Shown one piece after another: positions 2,952 to 61,392 of a stretch of DNA of 64,000 bases; positions within the stretch are counted from its first letter, which is position 1, and each line of letters opens with the position of its first letter. The notes beneath the pieces were generated by a model. The model made no database searches. It worked only from the letters and a program-made list of their open reading frames with translations, and was not told where the DNA came from. The DNA is from Antennarius striatus (Eukaryota; Chordata; Actinopteri; Lophiiformes; Antennariidae), in NCBI RefSeq assembly GCF_040054535.1, contig NC_090785.1, forward strand, positions 17,857,001 to 17,921,000, given 5' to 3'. Made by a program: the position numbers and the translations under genes.

Positions 2952-5900
2952 TTAGACTATTCCAGTCTGTGTGTGCAGGTGTAAGGGGTATGGTTGATAA
3001 AGCAGAGTGGATCCCCCTTGGGGTATGTAATAGCTGCAGTAGCTAGGTTCTGCTAAGTAGGGGGCGCTGTGCTCAGCAAGATATGGGGCGGGCTGGTAGA
3101 AGCACGTCACATGGTCTGTGTTGGGGATAATATTCTGCTCTCCCAGAACCTTCAGTGCCAGCACCGTGATCATATTCAGTGTCTGACGCCTCTCATGTCC
3201 CATCAGACACACTGTGCTGTCGTCTACGACCCGACGTAGAGTCATCAAGTACTGATACTTGCTTCTCTCTTCACCAATAAAGTGGTTCTTCAAGTAGGAC
3301 AGGATCTTCCTCTGCTGCTCCTGCACGTCTGGGAAATCGATGAAAAAGCGTGAGCACATGTAGCGCTCCAACGTCTTTATCTGAGTCTCGCTGGCTGGTC
3401 GGTAGTCCCTGACCAACAGGTTGCTGTATTTTAATAAGCCACCACCTCGGATCTCCTCAGGGTTTCTCGTGGCAATTAGGCGGTAGCGCAGGTGATTCAT
3501 GGCTGCTTCAAAATCACCGTACATGCTCTCTGCCAGTACCTCTACTGCAGGGACTGAGTCACATGCGTGAGGACTGCTGCTCTGCTCAGGCATGTCTGTG
3601 GTTACCGTAGGGACCTCTTTGTTCTCAATCATGCAGCTGGATGCTTCATCCGCCTTTGGAGGGTCAGATTCCACTGGGCCTCCACACTGAGACTGGGGTA
3701 ACGCGGTCGAGGCGGAGTCCGGAATTGTGATCGGAAAAGAAACCGGCTCTGAAACTGGGGGCAATGATAAGATATAATCTTGTTCCTTTTCATCCTCCAA
3801 TTGAAAATCAGGAACTCCTGGCTGAAGAGATGGCTCTTTAATCTGTTCTCCACTGTCTGTGCTCAGTATCAAAGGCTCCATGTCTGAAGATACCTGAAGA
3901 ACAAGGTCCTTTTTCTCAACGGGTGGAGTAAGGCAGAGGAGGGGAGGACTTAGACAGACGGGGGGAGGGCTGAGGCTAAGCATCGGAGGGGTCAGGTAAG
4001 GAGGTGAGCTGAGGCAGGAGGAGGTAGGGCTGAAACTCAGGGGTGGGGAGTTTAAGCTGGTGGCAGGGCTGACGACGCTCAGCTCAGGAGATGAGAGGCA
4101 GTGAGACTGAGGGGTCAGACATTTGGGAGGGCTGAGGCTCGGTGGTGAGAAAGTGAAATCAGGAGGGGAGAGATTTGGTCCTGAAGGGCTGAGATAGGAA
4201 ACAGGAGGGGTGGTGCATTGGGAAGTGGAGGGTGAACTAAGTGTGGTCTCTTGTGGGTTGTCGTTTTGTTGATTCAAGTCCATCTTTTTGGTCTGTAGGT
4301 CTTCGGTTTCTTCATCACTGAGCTGAACTTCTGAGGTTTGAATAGGTTCCTGGGGGTTTGAGCTGAATTTGTCTGGATTTACTGATTCAAGAGGCTCTGA
4401 TTGTTTGGATTCTAGAGGTGTTTCTGTTGGGGAGGACTGGATCTTGTCATCTAAAGTTAGATGTGCAGACAGCGTCTCTTGGACCTTGTGATTAATTGTT
4501 TCACATAAATCCTCTGTGATTAGCTGAGAGGATGCCGTCTCATGAGGTAAAACAGATTTTGGATCCTCAGCAGAGGTGGAAATTATATCAGGGACTGGCT
4601 CAGGGGTTGAGGTAAGGTCTAAGCTTGAACTTAAATTAGTGGAAATGTTGGGTTCAGAACCTGGCTTTGTCTGAGTAGAGACACTGTCTGTTGGGGTATT
4701 AGTAAGGTGTGAACTGGGAGTTGTCGGCTTTGGGTCAAATGCCATCTGCTGTTCGGTGCTAGGACACGAGTTTGAATCAACAGACGACGCTGTGACAGTT
4801 TCTCTTTCAAATACTGGACCTGTGTAATGATTGGCGGTAACCTTCCTACACATTCTCCTGGGGGGTTTTGGAGAAGAGTGTTTTAACACCACCATGTGAG
4901 CTAGTCTTTCTGAGGTCTTACACGAGGGGGGAGAGGAAGTCTTTTTGTCAGAAATGAGGCTGGGTTGTGCAGGTAAAATATCCTGAGTGTCTGGAGGGCT
5001 GACAGTATCGAGTGTGTTGGGTGTTTTATCTGTGTTGTCACTGTGTAGTGTGCTGTGAATCCCCTGTGTCTCCTGTATGCTAGTGGGCTCCGTGTTAATA
5101 GATATGGAAGAGACGGAGCAGGAGCAATCAATACCCTGCAAGTCCTCTCTGTTTTTTGCTTCTGAAGCTAAAATATCTTCTGTCACTTCACTTATTTCCA
5201 TATAATTTCCCCCCTCTTCTTGCTCCCCTGTCCCTGTTTCTACTTCGCTTTCATCTGCTAACCGTGCCTCTACCTTAGTTTGTGAAGATGTGCTGGAGTC
5301 TAGAGCATACTCGTGTTGTGTGTCATCTTCTTCATTGCCTCTCTGATCCTCGTTCAAACTCTTTGAGAGTTCTGTGCTGAGATGATCTGTCAAGTTCTGA
5401 GACTCCATCTGGCTGTCGTCTGAGACTTGTTGTACCTCAGACTGTCCCGTGTGGTCCGCGAGTCCTTCCTCTTCAGAGGATTTTGTTTGGTCAGGTTGTT
5501 CGTTAAGGGGGTAGTGTTCTTCCTGGTTTGAATGTGCTGGTTTTTGGCCATCACAGGGCTGGGTTTGCTCTGACTGTTCTACCTCTGTTGAATAATTGGT
5601 TTTGACAGAGGGCTCTGGCTCATGTCTGAGTTCAAGCTGCGCTGGCGGTTCAGCTTTCTCAGATTTTTGTGTCTTTTCCGTCAAAAGGTTTAGAGGTGTC
5701 TGGTCAGACAAGTCAGTCTTATCTAAGTTTTCAGTGTGTTCAGTCACTTCTTTCAGCTCTTCTGGTATTTTTTGCTCAACGATTTTTTCAGCTTTGGACT
5801 GTTTGTTCTCAATTGAAGGTTTGGTTTGCTGTGCAAGTTCCTTTTGGGACTCCTTTTCATGTACCTTGTCCTTCTGTTTCAGCTGACTCATCTGAGCCCC

Positions 5901-6972
5901 CTCTTTCCTAGATAAGTCTCTAGCAGTATTCTTCTGTGTTTCTGCACCGGTGGCCTGCTTTAGCGAGGAGGGAGAGTCTTTTCTCTGATTTTCTGTACAC
6001 TCATCCTGAAGATCAACAGTGTTATTTTTGTGTTGTGAATCCTGTTGCATGTAGGACTCCAGGAGTCGATCCAGAATGATCTGGAAGGAATCAACACTGA
6101 ACTCAAACTGCCGCCTCAGCACACTAACAAATTTTAGCTCTAGGTTTTTGCCGCTGTTGTTGGAGAGAGAGATGAGGCTCCAACGGTCATACTCATTGAA
6201 AACCTTCACCATTTTCTGGACATAGGCCTCCTTCATCGTTGCGCTGCTGATCCGCTCCCTATTGACTCCCGCAGGTAGGCACTCAAGCAGGCAGCCCAGC
6301 ACTGACTCCTTGATCACCTGAAAGGAGAAGAGGTCAGCAACATGACAGCTGCTACTAATGACTGCAATCTGAGAGTAATTTTGTTTGTGTCACTGATCTG
6401 AATAATATAATGCTCTTGGTTTAGTTTTCTGTATAATTCAATTAAATATATTAAAACCACCACTATTGATTCAGCCTCATGGCAAAATGGTCTGTAATGA
6501 AATTATGGTTAGGATTTTAATGTTATTATCAGTATATCCTCTCATGAATAAATTCTGCAACACCTTGTAGATACAGGATATTCAGTGTCTCACTGAAGGA
6601 CAATGGAAAGAGAAAATTAAGGATTCAGATGCAGGAAATTGAAACCGAATTCTTCACGCTTATTACCTGAAACTCCTCTTGACTGGGCAACTCCACTCCG
6701 AAGATGATGTCCAGGTCCTTGTAGCTTGTTCCGTTGTCTCGGACGAGGACGTGACTGGCCGTGGAGCCATTCAGACGGACATCCCTGACCGTGATTCCCT
6801 GCTTCTGCAGCCTGGTCCGCACGGCGATGATGATGTCTCTGGGACGCAGCTCCAATGTAGGAAAGTTCCCGCGACCGTGGATCGGAACCACCTCTGACAA
6901 AACCTGATGAAGAACCTCCACTTGCTCAGTGTTCAGGCTGTGGAAACGTTGATTGGATCTGGTTTCAGGCAT
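2952..6972 (-). CDS. tent5d: Terminal nucleotidyltransferase 5D (FAM46D-like) with giant internal insert
   Basis: This encodes a FAM46/TENT5 non-canonical poly(A) polymerase, which adds adenosines to cytoplasmic mRNAs. There are two coding exons: 6667-6972 (102 codons, ATG at 6970-6972, donor right after the codons for EEFQ) and 2952-6317 (acceptor CAG, first codon GTG). Together they give about 1223 residues, against roughly 390-430 for the family. Catalytic features are the NGS turn (residues 68-70), the DLD pair (D86, D88) and, by alignment from memory with human TENT5C D90/D92/E166, E162 in the ELKF segment. The core resumes near residue 1032 with ESMYGDFE, then the [20 protein letters not shown] block and the [12 protein letters not shown] helix, ending about residue 1223. 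Between residues 191 and 1031 a disordered-looking insert replaces a loop of about 20 residues. Linkage to tbx22 favours paralog D over A-C. A 5' UTR acceptor (AATTCCAG) lies at 6982-6984, so transcription starts further upstream. Confidence 0.93.
3530..6050 (-). other. tent5d: Lineage-specific insert of about 840 residues within the Tent5d core
   Basis: This part of tent5d exon 2 has no counterpart in the mammalian TENT5 proteins I know. The reading frame stays open for about 2.5 kb. The first half is rich in Glu, Lys, Gln, Ser and Thr, with many EQ/KE runs. The middle is Ser/Thr/Pro rich. The last third contains degenerate repeats around SPP (see 3915-4215), followed by acidic sequence that joins the conserved core. 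I see no globular domain, zinc finger or membrane segment, so it is probably intrinsically disordered. A retained intron is unlikely, since 2.5 kb of random sequence would contain many stops. Confidence 0.8.
3915..4215 (-). repeat. Degenerate SPP-type coding repeat inside the Tent5d insert
   Basis: The translated sequence repeats short units such as LSPP, LTPP, FSPP and LSSPP at irregular spacing for about 100 residues. On DNA the coding strand is pyrimidine rich and the plus strand purine rich, with repeated GGAGGGGT/GAGGGCTGAGG-like words. This looks like expansion of a short unit followed by divergence, with the frame maintained. Confidence 0.8.
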
Positions 6973-11508: not shown

Positions 11509-11650
11509 GCTATCCAGAAGGGCCACATGGAGGCAGTGAGGATCCATCCAGAGTATGCAATCTGTCAGAAGCATCTATCCATTGATGTCTTGAGGATGAG
11601 AACAGGTGTGGATGGTGAAGGTTCAAAGGTCAGGCCAGCAGGCCAGTGCA
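11509..11650 (+). pseudogene. chmp1b: chmp1b relic exon 3 (AIQKGxMExxRIH segment)
   Basis: After the TTTCTCAG acceptor, 44 codons stay open and align colinearly with CHMP1B through the LRM and RVDAVAARVQTA region. Several invariant residues are changed (for example HAENAIR has become HPEYAIC). No clear donor follows. Confidence 0.8.
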
Positions 11651-14289: not shown

Positions 14290-14397
14290 ATCTCTGTCCA
14301 ACATGACACGTTTGACAGTCGGTTTGAAACTCTTGACATACAGACAGCCCCGATGGCAGACACAATGGGTAACACCACCGCTCTGACAGCAGCTCAG
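14290..14397 (+). pseudogene. chmp1b: chmp1b relic exon (DKFEHQFETLDVQT to TTPQ segment)
   Basis: Thirty-six in-frame codons match ISALMDKFEHQFETLDVQ and the following MEDTMSSTTTLTTPQ block of CHMP1B with scattered changes. The donor CAG|GTAAGC is intact. The upstream acceptor is not recognisable. Confidence 0.85.
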
Positions 14398-14805
14398 GTA
14401 AGCACCGTCCTTTAGCAATGGGGGAATCTTATAAAGATGACTTATGAAAGAGGTCTTAACATCACACATAACTCTGAATCATTCAAACATGAAATAACTG
14501 ATTGTTGGTTGGTCTGTTGCGTGAAGTGGGTTTGCTGTTGCAAAAACAGCCAAACATTAAAAAGTCACACAGACTAATGCATTAAGGGCTTTATTTCAGT
14601 GACTCTCAGATTAAAGGCTCAGAATAAATCTCTTTTGTTGTTTTCATGGTTCCCTTTTAAATACGAAATGAAAAAACAGCTAGCAAAATACTGTTGTGTG
14701 GTCGGAATGAGTTCTATGATTTTTATTCTCTTTAAGAGTGCAGAAAACAAGTAGATTTAATGGTGTAACTGTTCCTGTGGGGGTTTTTTTTTTTCTTCTT
14801 TAAAG

Positions 14806-28700: not shown

Positions 28701-31700
28701 AATCATCAATTTTTTTATTTCAAGAATGTGTTTGATAATTTCAAGATACACAATTTAACTACAAGAGGTGATAAAGGAATAAAATTGAATTTTGAACAAA
28801 ATACAGTCAAAATCATCAAAACTTAGGAAAACCATTAATAGTATAAAAATGGTTAAATACAGAATAAAATGTAAAATTGCATAGGTTAAAATTGTACTAC
28901 TTTTTTGTTACTACTTTTCAAAAACTCAAGAAATATTGCAATAACAACAACTAGTGTCAAAACTACTAATATTAACTATTTTGTTCCACTATTTTAAATT
29001 GATGTAAACAAAATTATCAGTGAAATTATCAGTTTGTTTTTTTGAAGATAGTTTAGCAAATACAAGAGTATGACAGCTGTGGAGTTTTTACCGATGATGA
29101 TGAGGTAAAATAAGTAATATGCGCATTCATTTAATATGCAGGGATTTGGTGCCAAAACCCTGCATATTATATATCTTTGGCGTTAAGTCACAGCTTCCGT
29201 AACTCAAAACACTACATCAATAAGGCTTAAACTCAACACGAGTTCTGCAGATTTCCAAAGGCGAGTTAAGGTGGTGAACTGACCACAGCTTCAGGGATTA
29301 TGGGTCTGTTTTAGAGAAGCCTCAGCTGTACTGCAAAACTACTTTCCTTCATTAAATGGCCAAATATTGAATCCTCCCAACACGCAAATTTCAGGTTGGT
29401 TTTATAAACACTGGGATCATGTGAAAAGCCTCCCAGCAACCACATCTGTACATCTCTGAACCTTTAGGAAGATCTGCAGCCCAGAAGGGATTTCCACTTC
29501 CTATATCCCTATAGACATACAAACTGTCCTTCTAAATACTAAAAATAGTTTGATGTGTCTATGACAGCGATCTGAGCACTAAAGCAGCCAAAGTTTGACT
29601 AAAAACAAACTCTGACCAATAAATTCCAGCTGATGTGGGCTTTATTAAATTACACTGAGTAATATGTGGAAATAATTTAGGTATTTCTTAATTAGAACTA
29701 CAGACATTAGAAGGCAGCCCACAATAATTAAGAAAAAAAGAGAAAGAAACAATAAGTAACCTCTAATATTTTTCATATTTGCCCCACCTGTTGAACTTTG
29801 TGGTCATTATCAACAGGAAAAAAAAAAGAAAACCAAAGCAGCACATGCTCAGACCTACATGCCCCTTGTCATCCATCTCGTTATTGGTGAGTTTGACCCG
29901 ATCAAAGCTGATGATCTGACGCATCCACGTCTCCCCAGAGCACGGCGAGTCCGTGTGTACGTAGAGCCTGGGAGAGATGCAGGAATGGTCCGTGTTCCCA
30001 GCCACCATCCACTGCGAGCTGTGGTACACGTACCTACAGTGTTCATGGAGTGAAGTAAATATACCAATGTGAAGATCACGAACGTGGTTAATGAAATATA
30101 CACACCTGTAACGCTTGGAGTCCACTGGCATGACGTCCATCGCGATGTAGTACTGTTGGCACGGGTCCAGATTGCGCACTTTTACGCGCACCGAGGGAAA
30201 CATTCTCCTACCGAGGTGAAACAGAAGAAGCTCAATGCATTTTTTAATACATGGAAATGACTCGTGTATTTTTAACCTTTAATAAAGCAGGTAAAGGTGT
30301 TTAGTTAACACGCTTTCACGCGTAAAAACACCCAGAAAAAGACCCGGAACAAGAGTTTAAGGCAGAATAATAAAGTTCAGAGGCGAGTTCAAGGATGCCG
30401 AGGGGGCATGAGGGCAACTTCACTGCTGATATTTACAGCTTCTGTTGTCCATAATTGGATTGAATGAGATTTAGATGTTAGACAACTCGTTTTATGAGGG
30501 GGGAAAAAAAGGAGCAGAAGACTGGCGACCTCTTGACAAATAGAGTCCTTTGAAAGTAAAGATTACTGTAATTGAATCCACCAATAATATCTCTGTCATA
30601 TGATTTCATTGGATAGCCTTATTTTTTGAAAAACATTTTAATTTCGTTCGACAAAATTTCTCAGATTTCGGTCGACCTCACATCATCTCACATGATGCTG
30701 TTAACTTTTTTACATTTCATTTTTATGTTCTAAAAATACCTACAAAACAGAGAAAAGGACTGCAATGATTTTTCTACATGGAATTTCGTTCTAGAAAATA
30801 AATACAAGACTTCTAGGAGGATATGTTTTATAGTCATCGACACATAAATGTTTCCCGAATTCAGCTAAAAAAAAAAAATTGACAGCTCTGCTTTTGATCG
30901 AACTGTTTTACACCGATCGACCCGCACCACGCAGCAGTTATAGACTGTATATTATATCATGATTCATCTCATTTATGGTGGCTTCTGTAGCTTTTATTCT
31001 AAAGAGAAAAAACGAACAATCATGTCAGACAGAACTAATGTCTGATTGTACATTCATTTTCATCCTAAATCAATGATGAGACTGTCGGGTCTGCTTTTAA
31101 ACCGATTTTTTTTTTAATTATACAGTATTTACAGAAAGAAATGAAGAGTTTTAAGATCATATATTAGTATCTCTAATTTGGTTTAAGTCAGTGTGTACAG
31201 TTGTTACTGTTTTGAGGAAACTCCTACAAAATAACCAAATTATTACGACCAATAACTGCCTGTCAAATTCATATTGATCCCCTTGCGTTGATTAAATTCA
31301 ATAAATACCTTTGGAGTTTTAGACAGAACCAGGAATAATCCGGCCTGAATTTGTCCTAAATACAGCAGCTGCTAGTCTTAAAATCCACATTGTGTACCGG
31401 CCAGCCTTGGTGATGATCATCTCGGTGCCTATTTCATAGAATCTCTTCCACAGCTCGGAGCCCTGAAGCTCCACCCGGGCCTCCCTGCCCGGGCGACAGT
31501 CGCTCTCCTTCGACCGGTTCTCCTCTCCGTGGGGGTCAGCCTCCTCAGCTTTGGTTCGCTCCGGGTCAAAGGAGGACTCCTCTGTCCTCATCGGTGTGGA
31601 ACCTCCATTCTCCATCTGACCGACTGGGTGCTCGTTCAGGCCTGTAACGTTGTAAACACTAGAATGTAAGAATGAGCTTGGAAATAAATACAATTATGTG

Positions 31701-50696: not shown

Positions 50697-54836
<4,140 letters not shown>

Positions 54837-56131: not shown

Positions 56132-59100
56132 TCATTGACACCGATGTAGGTTGTCTTGGTCCTCCGCCACCGGCAGGCAGGTCAGCTGCCTGCTGAGCGG
56201 GATGCCCTCCAGTCTATCCGGCTTGTTCAGTCGCTTCCAAAATTCATATGTTGTGAAATAATACATGAGTGGATCCAGGCTGCAGTTCAGGCTGGCCAGA
56301 CAGAGGGTGACCGGGTGGCTCCTCAGGATCCGGTCCCTGAGGGCGCAGCTGCTCAGGACGTTAGCTTTGACCAGGAAGTCCAAGGGCATGGTGATGTGGT
56401 AAGGCGCAAAGCAGAGCAGGAACAACGCAGCACAGCTCAGCACCATCCTTAATGCCTTCTGCTTCTCCCCCTGGTCGGGAATGGCCCCCGATCTCTGCTG
56501 CCGGAGACTCCCAGCAGTCAGGCAGGCGCAGGATGCAACTAGGATGAAGGGGATGACGAAGCCCAGCAGCTCAGCTACAATCAGGAGGATCCCAGCCGCC
56601 GGGAGGCTGATGGTCCTCATGGACAGCTCTGAGAAACACACCGAGTCTGTCACGGTGAGGGGGGCCCTGACCTCTGAGCTGAGGGACCTGGCACTGGGGC
56701 TCAGGTCATTGCTGGAGTTCCTCAGGAGAGGAAAGGGCAGGCAGCACAGGATGACCAACAACCAGCCCAGGGCGCAGATCAACAGGTCTCTGCGTCTGGA
56801 GGAGTTGAACGTCAGTGGGCGAATGATGAGCTCGCAGCGACGCACGCTGACACACACCAGGAAGTAGATGGAGGCGTACATGTTGACGTATTTGAGATAG
56901 AAGCAGATCATGCAGAGGGGATGACCGAAGGGCCAGGTGTTGTTCAGGTAGTAGTAGATCCTCAGAGGCAGAGAGAGCACCTGAGGGGAGAGGAGAGGAC
57001 GGGTGGGTATAGAGGAACAAAACACAAACAGACCCACATCTCTGGATTTTGTGCTTGACTGCAATGTTTGTTTATCCTAACACCATTAAATGTCTCCGCA
57101 AGACACAATGTCTCACAAAGTTGTTAACTTGGATGAAATATTGTGTTCAGGGTGGATTTGGACCAGAGATTTGTTGAATTTTGAGGTAAATCCAGACAAG
57201 ATTCAGATGTGAATCAAACCTATGACTTCCATACCGGATCGGTCGAAGCCCTGGTTAACAACAACCGCCATCGGCGCTGTTGACCTACAGGACGCCGGTG
57301 GAAATTGGACTACTGTTGGTCGAAGAAGGAGAGGAGGAAAGTGCATTTGCATGAAGAAAGAGAAGAGGAGCGCCAAGAGTATAGGACTGAAAGTAGGGAC
57401 GTTGAATGTTGGAACTTTGACCGGAAAAGGTAGAGAGTTGGTTGACATGATGCAGAGAAGGAAGGTGAACATACTGTGTGTCCAGGAGACCAGGTGGAAA
57501 GGTAGCAAGATTAGAAGTTCAGGAGCAGGGTTCAAGTTGTTCTATCATGGCATGGGAAGAGAAATGGAGTAGGAGTTATCTTGAAGGAGGAGATGGTTAG
57601 GAATGTCCTGGAGGTAAAAAGAGTGTCGGATAGAGTGATGAATCTGAAGCTAGAAATAGAAGGTGTGATGTTCAGTGTTGTTAGTGGGTATGCTCCACAG
57701 GTAGGCTGTGAGCTGTAGGAGGAGAAATTCTGATTGGACTTTGATGAAGTGATACAGAGCATGCCTAGAAGTGAGAGAGTTGTAATTGGTGCAGACTTTA
57801 ATGGACATGTTGGTGCAGGTAACAGAGGTGATGAGGAGGTGATGGGCATGTTTGGTATCCAGGAGAGGAACACAGAGGACAGATGGTAGTTGACTTTCCA
57901 AAAAGGATGGAAATGGCTGTAGTGAATACTTTCTTCCAGAAGAGGCAGGAACATAGGGTGACCTATAAGGGTGGTGGTAGGAGCACACAGGTAGACTACA
58001 TCTTGTGTAGACGGTATAACCTGAAGGAGATCAGTGACTGCAAAGTAGTGGTAGGTTAGAGTGCAGCCAAACAGCATAGGATGATGATGTGTAGAATGAC
58101 TCTGGTGGTGAGGAAGATGAAGAGGACAAAGACAGAGCAGAGGACGAAATGGTGGAAGCTGAAAAAGGAAAAGTTGTTAAGGAAGGTGTTGAGACAGGCT
58201 CTGGGAGGCCAGGAGGTGCTTCCAGATGACTGGACAACTACAGCTAATGTGATCAGGGAGACAGGTAGGAGAGTACTTGGTGTGTCATCTGGAAGGAAAG
58301 TAGATAAAGAGGCTTGGTGGTGGAATGAGGAGGTACAGGAGTGTTTACAGAGAAAGAGGTTAGCTAAGAGGAAGTGGGACACTGAGAGGACTGAGGAGAG
58401 CAGACAGGAGTACAGGGAGATGCAGTGAAGGTGAAGGTAGAGGTAGCAAAGGCCAAACAAGAAGCTTATGATGACTTGTATGCTAGGTTGGACAGTAAGG
58501 AGGGAGAGACTGATCTATACAGTTTGGCAAGACAGAGAGACGGAGATGTGAAGGACGTGCAGCAGGTTAGAGTGATTAAGGATAGGGATGGAAGTCTATT
58601 GACAGGTGCCAGTAGTGTGATGGGAAGATGGAAAGAGTACTTTGAAGAGTTTATGAATGCGGAAAATGAGAGAGAACAAAGACTAGAAGAGGTGGCTGTT
58701 GTGGACCAGGAAGTAGCAAAGATTAGTCAGGATGAAGTGAGGAGGGCACTGAAGAGGATGAAGAGTGGAAAGGCAGTCGGTCCTGATAATATACCTGTAG
58801 AGGTATGGAAGTGTCTAGGAGAGGTGGCAGTAGAGTTTCTGACTGGGTTGTTCAACAGGGTCTTAGATAGTGAGAAGATGCCTGAGGAATGGAGGAGAAG
58901 TGTGTTGGTGCCCATTTTTAAGAACAAGGGAGATGTGCAGAGTTGTGGCAACTACAGAGGAATAAAGCTGATGAGCCATACAATGAAGTTATGGGGAAGA
59001 GTAGTGGAAGCTAGACTAAGGGCAGAAGTGAACATTTGTGAGCAGCAGTATGATTTCATGCCAAAAAAGAGTACTACAGATGCAGTATTTGCTTTGAGGA

Positions 59101-60561
59101 TGTTGATAGAGAAGTACAGAGAAGGCCAGACGGAGCTGCATTGTGTTTTTGTAGATCTGGAGAAAGCTTATGACAGGGTGCCCAGAGAGGAACTGTGGTA
59201 TTGTATGAGGAAGTCTGGAGTGGCAGAGAAGTATGTTAGAGCAGTGCAGGACATGTATGAGGACTGTAAGACAGTGGTGAGGTGTGCTGTAGGTGTGACT
59301 GAGGAGTTAAAGGTGGAGGTGGGACTGCATCAGGGATCAGCTCTGAGCCCCTTCTTGTTCGCTATGGTGATGGACAGGCTGACAGACGAGGTTAGACAGG
59401 AATCTCCATGGACTATGATGTTTGCAGATGACATTGTGATCTGTAGTGAGAGAAGGGAACAGGTGGAGGAGAAGCTAGAGAGGTGGAGGTTTGTCCTGGA
59501 AAGGAGAGGAATGAAGGTTAGCCGCAGTAAGACAGAGTACATGTGTGTGAATGAGAGGGACCCAAGTGGAAGAGTGAGGTTACAGGGAGAAGAGATCAAG
59601 AAGGTGGAGGATTTTAAGTACTTAGGGTCAACAGTCCAGAGCAATGGAGAGTGTGGAAAAGAGGTGAAGAAGCGTGTCCAGGCAGGATGGAACGGGTGGA
59701 GGAAAGTGTCAGGTGTGATGTGTGATAGAAGAGTTTCAGCTAAAATGAAAGGAAAGGTGTACAAAACAGCACATGTTAGAGGTTTTGGAGATAAAGTCAG
59801 AGAGGCCAGAGGTCCAGAGGACATGTCCAGAGGAGAGATAGTGAATATATTGGTAGAAGGATGCTGAGCTTTGAACTGCCAGGTAGGAGGCCAAGAGGAA
59901 GACCAAAGAGGAGGTTTATGGATGTAATGAGGGAGGACATGAAGGTAGTTGGTGTGAGAGAAGAGGATGCAGAAGACAGGGTTAGATGGAGGCAACTGAT
60001 TCACTGTGGCGACCCCTGAAGGGAAAAGCCGAAAGGAAAAGAAGAAGATCTAGGAAAAAAAGATCCAAACTGAAGATCCACAACAATATGAAATCACTGG
60101 AGTTTTTTTTTCTCTGATAACTCAAACTGCTGATTTTAAATGCAGGTAGGAAGTTTTGTTATCAATAGATCAGCTTAGAAAGGAAATTAGAGTAGTTGTA
60201 AGCTCATTATTTACACATATACATAAGACTAAAAAATAAACAACATGGTTTAAACAACAAAACAGTTTATTATAGCCATTAATATGCAACATTATAGATT
60301 TAAAAGTTAATTAAAGAGAGTTTATCTGACCTGCAGCAGGTCGGCCACAGCCAGGTTCATCATGAACACCACGGCCTTCTTGGTTTCTCTGATGTAAATC
60401 CTAAACACCCAGAGTGCGAGCACATTTCCCAGCAGGCCCGGTGCTAAGATGACGCTGTACACCACTGCATACACGTGGTGTTGATACATGCGGAGATCCT
60501 CGCTGCTTCCACAGCTCTGGTTGCCAGAGTCCATCTCAAGCCGAGGGCTGTTCAGCTCCAA
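56132..60561 (-). CDS. gpr174: GPR174-like class A GPCR split by one intron
   Basis: This encodes a seven-transmembrane receptor of the P2Y-like lipid group; mammalian GPR174 senses lysophosphatidylserine on lymphocytes. Exon 1 is 60331-60561 (77 codons; a second Met at codon 10 is an alternative start). It covers the N-terminus, TM1 (YSVILAPGLLGNVLALWVF), loop 1 (IRETKKAV) and the start of TM2 (FMMNLAVADLLQ). Exon 2 is 56132-56980 (282 codons plus stop). The total is 359 residues against 333 in human. Diagnostic segments are SLPLRIYYYLN, FYLKYVNMYASIYFLVC, EKQKALRM, CFAPYHITMPLDFLVKAN and LCLASLNCSLDP. TM3 ends in SVRRC rather than DRY, as in GPR174 and P2RY10. TM7 has DPLMYY. P2RY10 is the alternative, but the loop 1 and TM6 matches and the position next to itm2a favour gpr174. 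The intron holds an antisense LINE. Confidence 0.9.
57218..60050 (+). mobile_element. Near-complete RTE-type LINE, antisense in the gpr174 intron
   Basis: An APE-type endonuclease starts near 57222 (LNVGTLTGKGRELVDMM, VQETRWKGSK). Its frame breaks near 57562 and further stops follow up to about 58080. An open segment at 58081-58428 leads into the reverse transcriptase at 58425-59867, with KAVGPDNIPVEVWK, YRGIKLMSH, LEKAYDRVPRE, HQGSALSPFLFA and the catalytic FADDI. The C-terminal tail (RFMDVMREDMK, then DRVRWRQLIHCGDP*) sits in another frame at about 59913-60018, so there is a late frameshift. The 3' end CTGAAGGGAAAAGCCGAAAG with AAGAAGA repeats is the usual RTE tail of fish. The copy is close to full length but broken in several places, so it is inactive. 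Confidence 0.92.
58425..59867 (+). pseudogene. RTE reverse transcriptase ORF segment
   Basis: A 480-codon open segment with all the usual RT blocks in order, including LEKAYDRVPRE (palm A) and FADDIVIC (palm C). Its reading frame overlaps the end of the preceding segment by 4 bp in a different frame, so a frameshift separates it from the endonuclease. After about residue 440 it leaves the family frame. Confidence 0.9.
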
Positions 60562-61392
60562 GAGAACTAACAGTGTCGAGATCAGCAGACCTGCTTGTGT
60601 TCAGGTGATGGACATGTCTGAGGAGTTCATGGGTCCTTAACGACGTCACAGTGTGAGTCCAGCACCGATAACCCGTTGATGTTTCATACTGCATTCAATC
60701 TCCTGGCTGGTTCATGCTGGCACAGGTCGAAGCAGGTATCTGTAAAAAACAAAACAGGACGTTTGTGGTACAGGAAGCCAGCTCCTGATGCAGCATGATG
60801 TGATTGCTGCATGGAGAGCGGTGAGGTTCAAGAGAGAATCTCCATCTGAGACGTATCATGTTGCACAGCCCTCAGTGTCTCTCACACACACCGACACCTG
60901 CTGTCAGCCATGACCTCAATTTATATGCCATGTGTTTAAAACCTGCAGAATATAAGGCATTGTGTAGGTTGATGGCAGTTTCGCTTTCATTTCAGAGTCA
61001 TTGTTCAAACCCACAGAAGTGGCGACAGTTTCCCACTTAGTGTCTCCACCTGCATCAGGCTGTTGTGTAACATCTCAGAGTGGGGGTGTGTGTAGAGCTC
61101 CTGTGGTTACCGTAGAAGACACGCCGGTGTGATGTGAGAAGAAGAGTCGCTGCTGCGGGGAATACACTGATTTTACATTTCACAAAGCCCAGAATAGAAG
61201 TTTGGAAACTTTCCTTGTTCAAAACTGTCAAAAAACAGAAACCTATAGATGTTAAATTTAATTGAATCAATGTGTAATTAATGGTTTGTGGGTTTTTGAC
61301 CCTCCTACTGCTGCAGATGGTGCTATGTATAATGGTTCATGTTTTACTTTCTTTGATAACATGATTGATGGTGTTATTTAATACTTTTTGCC

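Follow-up and report, generated by a model that had tools for sequence, protein, structure and literature searches.

An in-frame insert of 840 residues in a TENT5-family gene of the fish Antennarius striatus, and a sister gene with an insert at the same point

Introduction

The window examined here is a stretch of 64,000 nucleotides from the fish Antennarius striatus (NC_090785.1, called C10 below; C10:17857001-17921000). It carries, on its minus strand, a gene of the TENT5 family that is called Tent5d for reasons of gene order given below. TENT5 enzymes lengthen mRNA tails. Typically, they have a compact core with a short loop at the point that is of concern here. In the window gene, the core is interrupted at that point by an open frame of 840 codons.

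An earlier note, made from the letters of this DNA, had remarked on such an insert of about 840 residues, had read it as a giant disordered loop that could recruit partners, control RNA access or drive condensation, and knew of no TENT5 of this form. The analysis reported here uses the window and searches of the 548-Mb, 42-contig assembly from which it comes. New beyond that note are a sister gene, a basic block common to the inserts of the two genes, and altered catalytic residues in the sister.

The interrupted core of the window gene

Tent5d has two coding exons (6972-6667 and 6317-2952, minus strand), which together encode a product of 1,223 residues. The first exon is closed by a GT donor (CAG/GTAATA). 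An AG and a pyrimidine tract sit nine bases ahead of the start codon, which makes an upstream non-coding exon likely.

The TENT5 core ends at Y191 and picks up again at E1032 (ESMYGDFE), which puts the insert at exactly 840 residues (192-1031). The Pfam family NTP_transf_7 matches the second exon in two stretches (E 6.8e-110), such that the family domain lies on both sides of the insert. The solved structures tell the same story. The window protein matches six distinct TENT5 chains. Five of them (TENT5C, TENT5B and TENT5A) align in two stretches and leave out the insert; the sixth, an N-terminal piece of 224 residues, matches in a single stretch. No TENT5D chain was found among the solved structures matched. 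Since the size of the short loop is not in the Pfam definition, the window gene is a TENT5 variant, and the insert does not exclude it from the family.

The insert itself brings no known domain. No Pfam family was found in the whole insert, and the second exon gives NTP_transf_7 only. A match of the serine/proline-rich (Ser/Pro-rich) part alone to ORC4_C (E 0.71) was taken as chance.

Where does the insert sit in the fold? The helical domain of human TENT5D is taken to begin at residue 210, judging by the constructs D210x and delta-209 in the part of PMC13291444 consulted. With the residue offset described below, the window insert follows human-equivalent residue 187. It therefore leaves the end of the nucleotidyltransferase (NTase) domain close to the junction of the two lobes.

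Intron or translated chain

A long open frame can, of course, be an intron that happens to be open, in which case the mature enzyme would be ordinary in size. Several observations make this very improbable. The insert has no in-frame stop in 840 codons, where its own dinucleotides predict 34.9, and the other five frames have 40, 66, 51, 32 and 39. The 380-codon insert of the sister gene described below has none either, against 20.7 expected. Along the insert, five overlapping windows of 840 bases have a period-3 power of 14.2, 6.0, 6.8, 3.2 and 2.1, where the 95% level of the background is 2.4 (from 61 of 115 background windows, the other 54 being repeat-rich and dropped). Thus, four of the five exceed background, as do both windows of the sister insert.

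The splice signals point the same way. Here, a simple model was used, with general consensus frequencies. It scores the actual donor and acceptor of Tent5d at 7.4 and 7.9 (sum 15.3), while the best in-frame pair that would excise at least 2,300 bases of the insert region sums to 1.7 only. Further, in all five TENT5 genes of this genome that lack an insert, the frame continues unbroken across the insertion point, which means that the family has no intron there. A retained intron was accordingly rejected on the stop count, the splice scan and the exon layout of the family.

Some observations weigh on the other side. The last, Ser/Pro-rich window has period-3 power within background. For an in-frame splice pair that would excise 741 bases inside the insert, the sum is 11.0, where the actual intron has 15.3; shorter isoforms are therefore possible. 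The guanine-cytosine (GC) content at third positions is low in the inserts (0.448 in the window gene, 0.408 in the sister) compared with the cores (0.659 and 0.636), and near the overall GC of the neighbouring window stretch 7001-29000 (0.402). Family codon use was fitted as well as by the window insert in 1 of 200 simulations, and as well as by the sister insert in 60 of 200. On a per-codon score, three of the five wrong frames beat the coding frame in the window insert, and all five do so in the sister insert. Synonymous codon choice is, because of these simulations and wrong-frame scores, no help to the case for coding, and it stands with low third-position GC on the side of an intron. The insert looks translated, yet its silent sites look near neutral. 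From stops, splice signals and exon layout taken together, we hold that the window insert is almost certainly translated.

A sister gene with an insert at the same point

A protein search finds seven TENT5 genes in the genome: the window gene, two on contig C9, and one each on C12, C13, C14 and C19. In a tree built from the shared part of these seven genes only, the window gene pairs with the C13 gene (support 100/99), the C14 gene with one of the C9 genes (100/98), and the other C9 gene with that on C19 (83/86). Two copies of each of three TENT5 types and one of a fourth would fit a teleost after whole-genome duplication.

At the insertion site, five of the seven have a loop of about 17 residues (roughly 20 according to the earlier note). 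The exceptions are the window gene and its C13 sister. The sister encodes 756 residues, with an insert of 380 residues after residue 191, which is the identical point. Thus, the open frame that the note expected at this point in a relative was found in the same genome.

The duplication that gave the two genes is old. Their cores are 73.6% identical over 375 codons, and differ by a p-distance of 0.689 at four-fold sites (106 sites), which is near saturation. Since both genes have the insert at the identical residue, and since both adjoin CHMP1B-like exons, the insert is presumed to be older than the duplication. It was probably present before the two genes separated, most simply before the teleost whole-genome duplication.

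Of course, a loop prone to insertion might have received an insert separately in each sister. The two inserts differ more than two-fold in length and are mostly unalignable, as this would predict. Such a history would have to place both inserts after residue 191, leave the other five TENT5 genes with none at this point, and give both inserts the basic block described next. We consider it quite unlikely.

The family differs in introns as well. The 349-base intron of the window gene is not found in the C13 gene. In the a-like and b-like TENT5 genes, introns seem to lie at two positions different from this one, and the coding frame of the C12 gene is intronless. It seems that introns were gained or lost on several occasions among the fish genes of this family. 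A short tandem duplication in the C-terminal tail of the window protein (residues 1179-1193; window 3045-3089, minus strand) is single in the sister.

A basic block common to both inserts

When the most basic window is picked from each insert, a selection that does not use similarity, the two windows align ungapped with a score of 42. Shuffled sequences give 18.5 +/- 4.3, and none of 300 shuffles reaches the score. The same procedure was negative for all nine control features (acidic, proline-rich, Ser/Thr-rich, aliphatic/aromatic, Gln/Asn, Cys, His, Leu and Gly/Ala windows), where the score was reached in 35 to 275 of 300 shuffles. The result holds at each of four window widths (0-1 of 1000 shuffles). 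With shuffling confined to each block, the score is reached in 5 of 5000. Each block has its partner as its top match in the other insert (47, the next best being 24 and 19). Thirteen of 33 positions are identical, including those of P-P, K-T and SPKxxRxMxRK, and the pattern may be written SSPP..K..(14)..SPKxxR[RK]M[CS]RK.

Against this stand the comparisons of the whole inserts, together with the history of the test. The inserts do not match each other significantly by blastp (E 0.22-0.24). Their local alignment score of 86 compares with 76.8 +/- 11.1 for shuffled sequences and is equalled in 10 of 60 shuffles. The best pair of 34-mers between them scores 47, against a null mean of 39.9 and a 95% level of 49. 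Further, the test of basic windows is post hoc, having been devised after basic blocks were noticed in the blastp output. The similarity of the blocks is for this reason good but not final evidence.

Searches beyond the two genes add little. Up to E 10, no solved structure matches the basic block, and the genome holds a single, weak match to it elsewhere (E 1.39). Genome searches with the block and with the whole insert are blind to relatives as diverged as these, because neither returned the sister insert.

Composition, disorder and origin of the insert

The two inserts are alike in their make-up. Both are rich in S, P, E and T, the window insert also in Q, and both are mostly acidic. By FoldIndex, the inserts score -0.13 and -0.09, and the parts of the core +0.12 to +0.17. 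Some windows go against this with positive values: two of the 14 in the window insert, which both fall within the Ser/Pro-rich stretch, and two of the seven in the sister insert. In two AlphaFold models, one for each protein, the inserts have neither helix nor strand except in the first 8 and 12 residues, into which the preceding helix continues. The quality of both models is poor (mean pLDDT, the predicted local distance difference test, 39.6 and 41.0, from alignments of eight and seven rows), and low confidence in the insert is thus weak evidence that adds little to composition. Structure prediction, which the earlier note had called for, agreed as to missing helix and strand, in models too poor to place the loop. 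That note's picture of a giant, disordered-looking loop near the junction of the NTase and helical domains, tripling the protein, is well supported. Judged from FoldIndex and composition, the insert is very likely to be disordered.

A long disordered chain might drive condensation of the enzyme with its target mRNAs, for example in germ granules. The length of the insert and its richness in S, P, E, T and Q would suit such a role. The residues are otherwise not encouraging: aromatics are scarce in the window insert (Y 1.0%, F 1.0%, no W), as are Arg (1.4%) and Gly (2.3%), and 11 of its 14 windows have net negative charge. Condensation is thus an improbable role.

As to origin, a mobile element, another gene and a tandem array were rejected on searches at the level of DNA, protein and repeats. 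The insert DNA matches only itself in the genome, in a search that skips simple repeats. The insert protein has, besides itself, three genome matches, the best at E 0.67. Tandem Repeats Finder reports no array between window 2618 and 7508. Short direct repeats do occur inside the Ser/Pro-rich part of the insert, where residues 792-911 hold 16 SP/TP sites in two 60-residue windows.

The same stretch (3891-4250, minus strand) contains two ten-residue peptides that resemble PAM2 under a loosened pattern. They were rejected as PABP-binding PAM2 motifs, as both are without the alanine of the consensus and the strict pattern has no match. Patterns for other short motifs (eIF4E, 14-3-3, cyclin and others) gave no matches in the insert, or generic ones only.

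Catalytic residues of the two sisters

The catalytic residues of FAM46A are G122, S123, D139, D141 and E215, as given in the portion of PMC10075960 consulted. Residues were mapped by an offset fixed by K190 of FAM46A and K133 of FAM46D. The window gene keeps all five (G69, S70, D86, D88, E162), and its RNA-entrance lysine is K137, corresponding to K133 of FAM46D. By its sequence, the window protein is a TENT5-family poly(A) polymerase with its catalytic residues in place.

The sister keeps three of the five (G69, A70, D86, D88, G162). It has lost the serine of the GS motif (S70 to A) and the catalytic base (E162 to G), with its frame intact. Because of these two losses, its product is probably a pseudo-polymerase, despite the intact frame and the retained insert.

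Features of the window and the name of the gene

The features are collected in Table 1.

Table 1. Coordinates of the features discussed; positions are those of the window unless a contig is named.
Feature	Position	Strand	Remarks
First coding exon	6667..6972	-	Residues 1-102, start of NTase domain; Pfam NTP_transf_7 E 4.3e-35
GS motif G69/S70	6763-6768	-	In first coding exon; placed by FAM46A offset
D86 and D88 codons	within 6709-6717	-	In first coding exon; placed by FAM46A offset
GT-AG intron, 349 bases	6318..6666	-	Not present in the C13 sister frame, uninterrupted at this point
Second coding exon	2952..6317	-	Residues 103-1223 and stop; open frame
Codon of catalytic base E162 (FAM46A E215)	6138..6140	-	Gly in C13 sister
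In-frame insert	3531..6050	-	Residues 192-1031 (840); disorder-type composition
Basic block	4842..4940	-	Residues 562-594 (33 residues); only stretch found common with the C13 insert
Ser/Pro-rich stretch	3891..4250	-	Residues 792-911; many LSPP/LTPP units
Helical domain and C-terminal tail	2955..3530	-	Residues 1032-1223
Diverged CHMP1B-like exon, upstream of Tent5d	11509..11598	+	E 1.9e-4 to CHMP1B
T-box exon (read as TBX22)	29763..30278	-	Pfam
Exon read as ITM2A	53004..53339	+	Named from its letters; without a Pfam match; a single weak match elsewhere in the genome
Sister tent5d	C13:8335524-8337791 (L014:2524-4791)	-	One open frame, 756 residues

The name Tent5d, already used in the earlier note, comes from synteny, that is, from the CHMP1B-like and T-box neighbours set against the human gene map. 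On human Xq21.1 we take the genes to be P2RY10, GPR174, ITM2A, TBX22, CHMP1B2P, TENT5D and BRWD3. The name is supported in this sense; the tree, of course, holds the seven genes of this genome, without human TENT5D.

Upstream of the sister, the CHMP1B-like exon is nearly identical to CHMP1B (E 1.1e-13). As the copy in the window is diverged, that copy may be a pseudogene. Window 14323-14400 (plus strand), like 11509-11598, matches C13 DNA upstream of the sister gene. The T-box exon, presumably of TBX22, has its two best matches elsewhere on C12 and C19, about 0.2 Mb and about 2.7 Mb from the TENT5 genes of those contigs. Searches with the T-box and ITM2A-like exons found no copy on C13, as a loss of neighbours on one side would predict. 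A BRICHOS search found nothing near the C13 gene; this is uninformative, because the window's own ITM2A-like exons gave no match either. The 50 kb of C13 examined hold WD40, RagA-type and cyclic nucleotide-gated (CNG) channel genes, the WD40 gene being, on a reading of its letters, presumably BRWD3.

A rhodopsin-type receptor gene was found by search at 60322-60600 and 56132-57076 (minus strand). From its letters, we take it to be P2RY10/GPR174. Its close copies lie in a C10 cluster only, and outside C10 it is matched best, at 34% identity, by C13:8962882-8963586, which lies about 0.63 Mb away from the sister. Between its two exons lies a frame with an RVT_1 match (Pfam, E 6e-36), part of an element like a long interspersed nuclear element (58395-59867, plus strand). 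Window 59765-60044, overlapping the end of this frame, has a match near the C13 gene (284 bases, 92.6% identity). Window 27598-27998 matches C13 sequence over 289 bases (75% identity) and over 150 bases (77%), and is perhaps a dispersed repeat.

Comparison with known enzymes

The window protein resembles TENT5D/FAM46D, and TENT5A to TENT5C, in the NTP_transf_7 domain that flanks its insert, in its five catalytic residues and RNA-entrance lysine, and in its CHMP1B-like and T-box neighbours. It differs from human TENT5D in length. Constructs of the human protein end at residue 389 in the consulted part of PMC13291444, while the window protein has 1,223 residues owing to its insert. No TENT5 of this form was found in the literature, judging by titles and abstract openings among the matches listed, which agrees with the earlier note.

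The sister has, we presume, a parallel in TUT4 and TUT7, which we take to be the proteins whose inactive domains are marked in the figure legend cited next. There, active and inactive domains would lie in one protein; here, two genes are involved. The likeness is in the loss of catalysis, inactive NTase domains being marked in that legend (PMC6240794, the legend being the part drawn on).

In its layout, the window protein recalls TUT1 (TENT1, Star-PAP), where residues 235-304, predicted to be disordered and proline-rich, lie inside the catalytic palm (PMC5467268, in the part consulted). This is an analogy of layout only, since that insert has about 70 residues, is elsewhere in the palm, and belongs to another enzyme family. 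According to the same part of PMC5467268, TUT1 without the inserted region keeps 96% of kcat/Km. The lobes of FAM46 open upon binding of BCCIP-alpha, as stated in the consulted part of PMC10075960. In stickleback, fam46d RNA differs in the brain with social housing, according to the part of PMC4569571 consulted; a fish gene so named is thus transcribed in brain.

A proposed explanation

The frame, the insert, the identity of its site, the similarity of the blocks and the catalytic residues are read directly from the DNA. An explanation that would join them runs as follows. A translated, disordered chain of 840 residues would replace the short loop near the junction of the NTase and helical domains. 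The chain would already have been in the single ancestor of the window gene and its C13 sister. Most of its sequence would be free to change, and would have evolved fast, with length, disorder, acidity and one basic block being kept. The insert would be a flexible tether and, like the proline-rich insert of TUT1, would not disturb catalysis. A partner such as an import receptor, RNA or an acidic protein would bind to the basic block, and phosphorylation of the SP/TP sites might tune this binding. The sister protein, with insert and block but without base and GS serine, would probably be a non-catalytic partner or competitor.

We give this chain as a whole, that is, an active Tent5d with an ancestral disordered insert as a tether sparing catalysis and carrying a docking block, a probability of roughly one half. 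Docking by the basic block, taken by itself, is put forward tentatively.

Alternatively, the insert may be translated without any specific role. Here, a permissive loop would have grown by slippage and local duplication and been tolerated, its frame being kept only because the helical domain follows. The very different lengths of the two inserts, with hardly any alignable sequence, would be expected on this account, as would their near-background third-position GC and the short direct repeats found within the Ser/Pro-rich part. Further, TUT1 does not need its proline-rich insert for activity in vitro (PMC5467268, in the part consulted). Such an account has difficulty with the basic block, which survives although the sister cores are near saturation, and with the hundreds of extra residues retained in both copies. 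An insert without a role is somewhat unlikely on this balance.

A broader proposal builds on the tether with its docking block. Two Tent5d proteins with giant loops might be kept in teleosts, the one catalytic, the other a pseudo-polymerase, alike only in the surface of the core and the basic docking block, such that the dead copy competes with the live one for a common partner or mRNA and thereby regulates it. This is speculative and rather unlikely. If true, cytoplasmic polyadenylation in fish would depend on a docking site, borne on a loop, that is unknown in mammalian TENT5.

Implications

How much the junction of the lobes tolerates can be seen from this natural TENT5D and the 840 residues inserted in its core. 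The protein also offers a possible regulatory site that is not in the compact mammalian enzymes. The two sisters, one apparently live and one apparently dead, are a ready test pair for a disordered insert in a poly(A) polymerase. The consulted part of PMC13291444 lists TENT5D with male sterility. A caution follows for those working with fish: their Tent5d may be no simple stand-in for the human protein.

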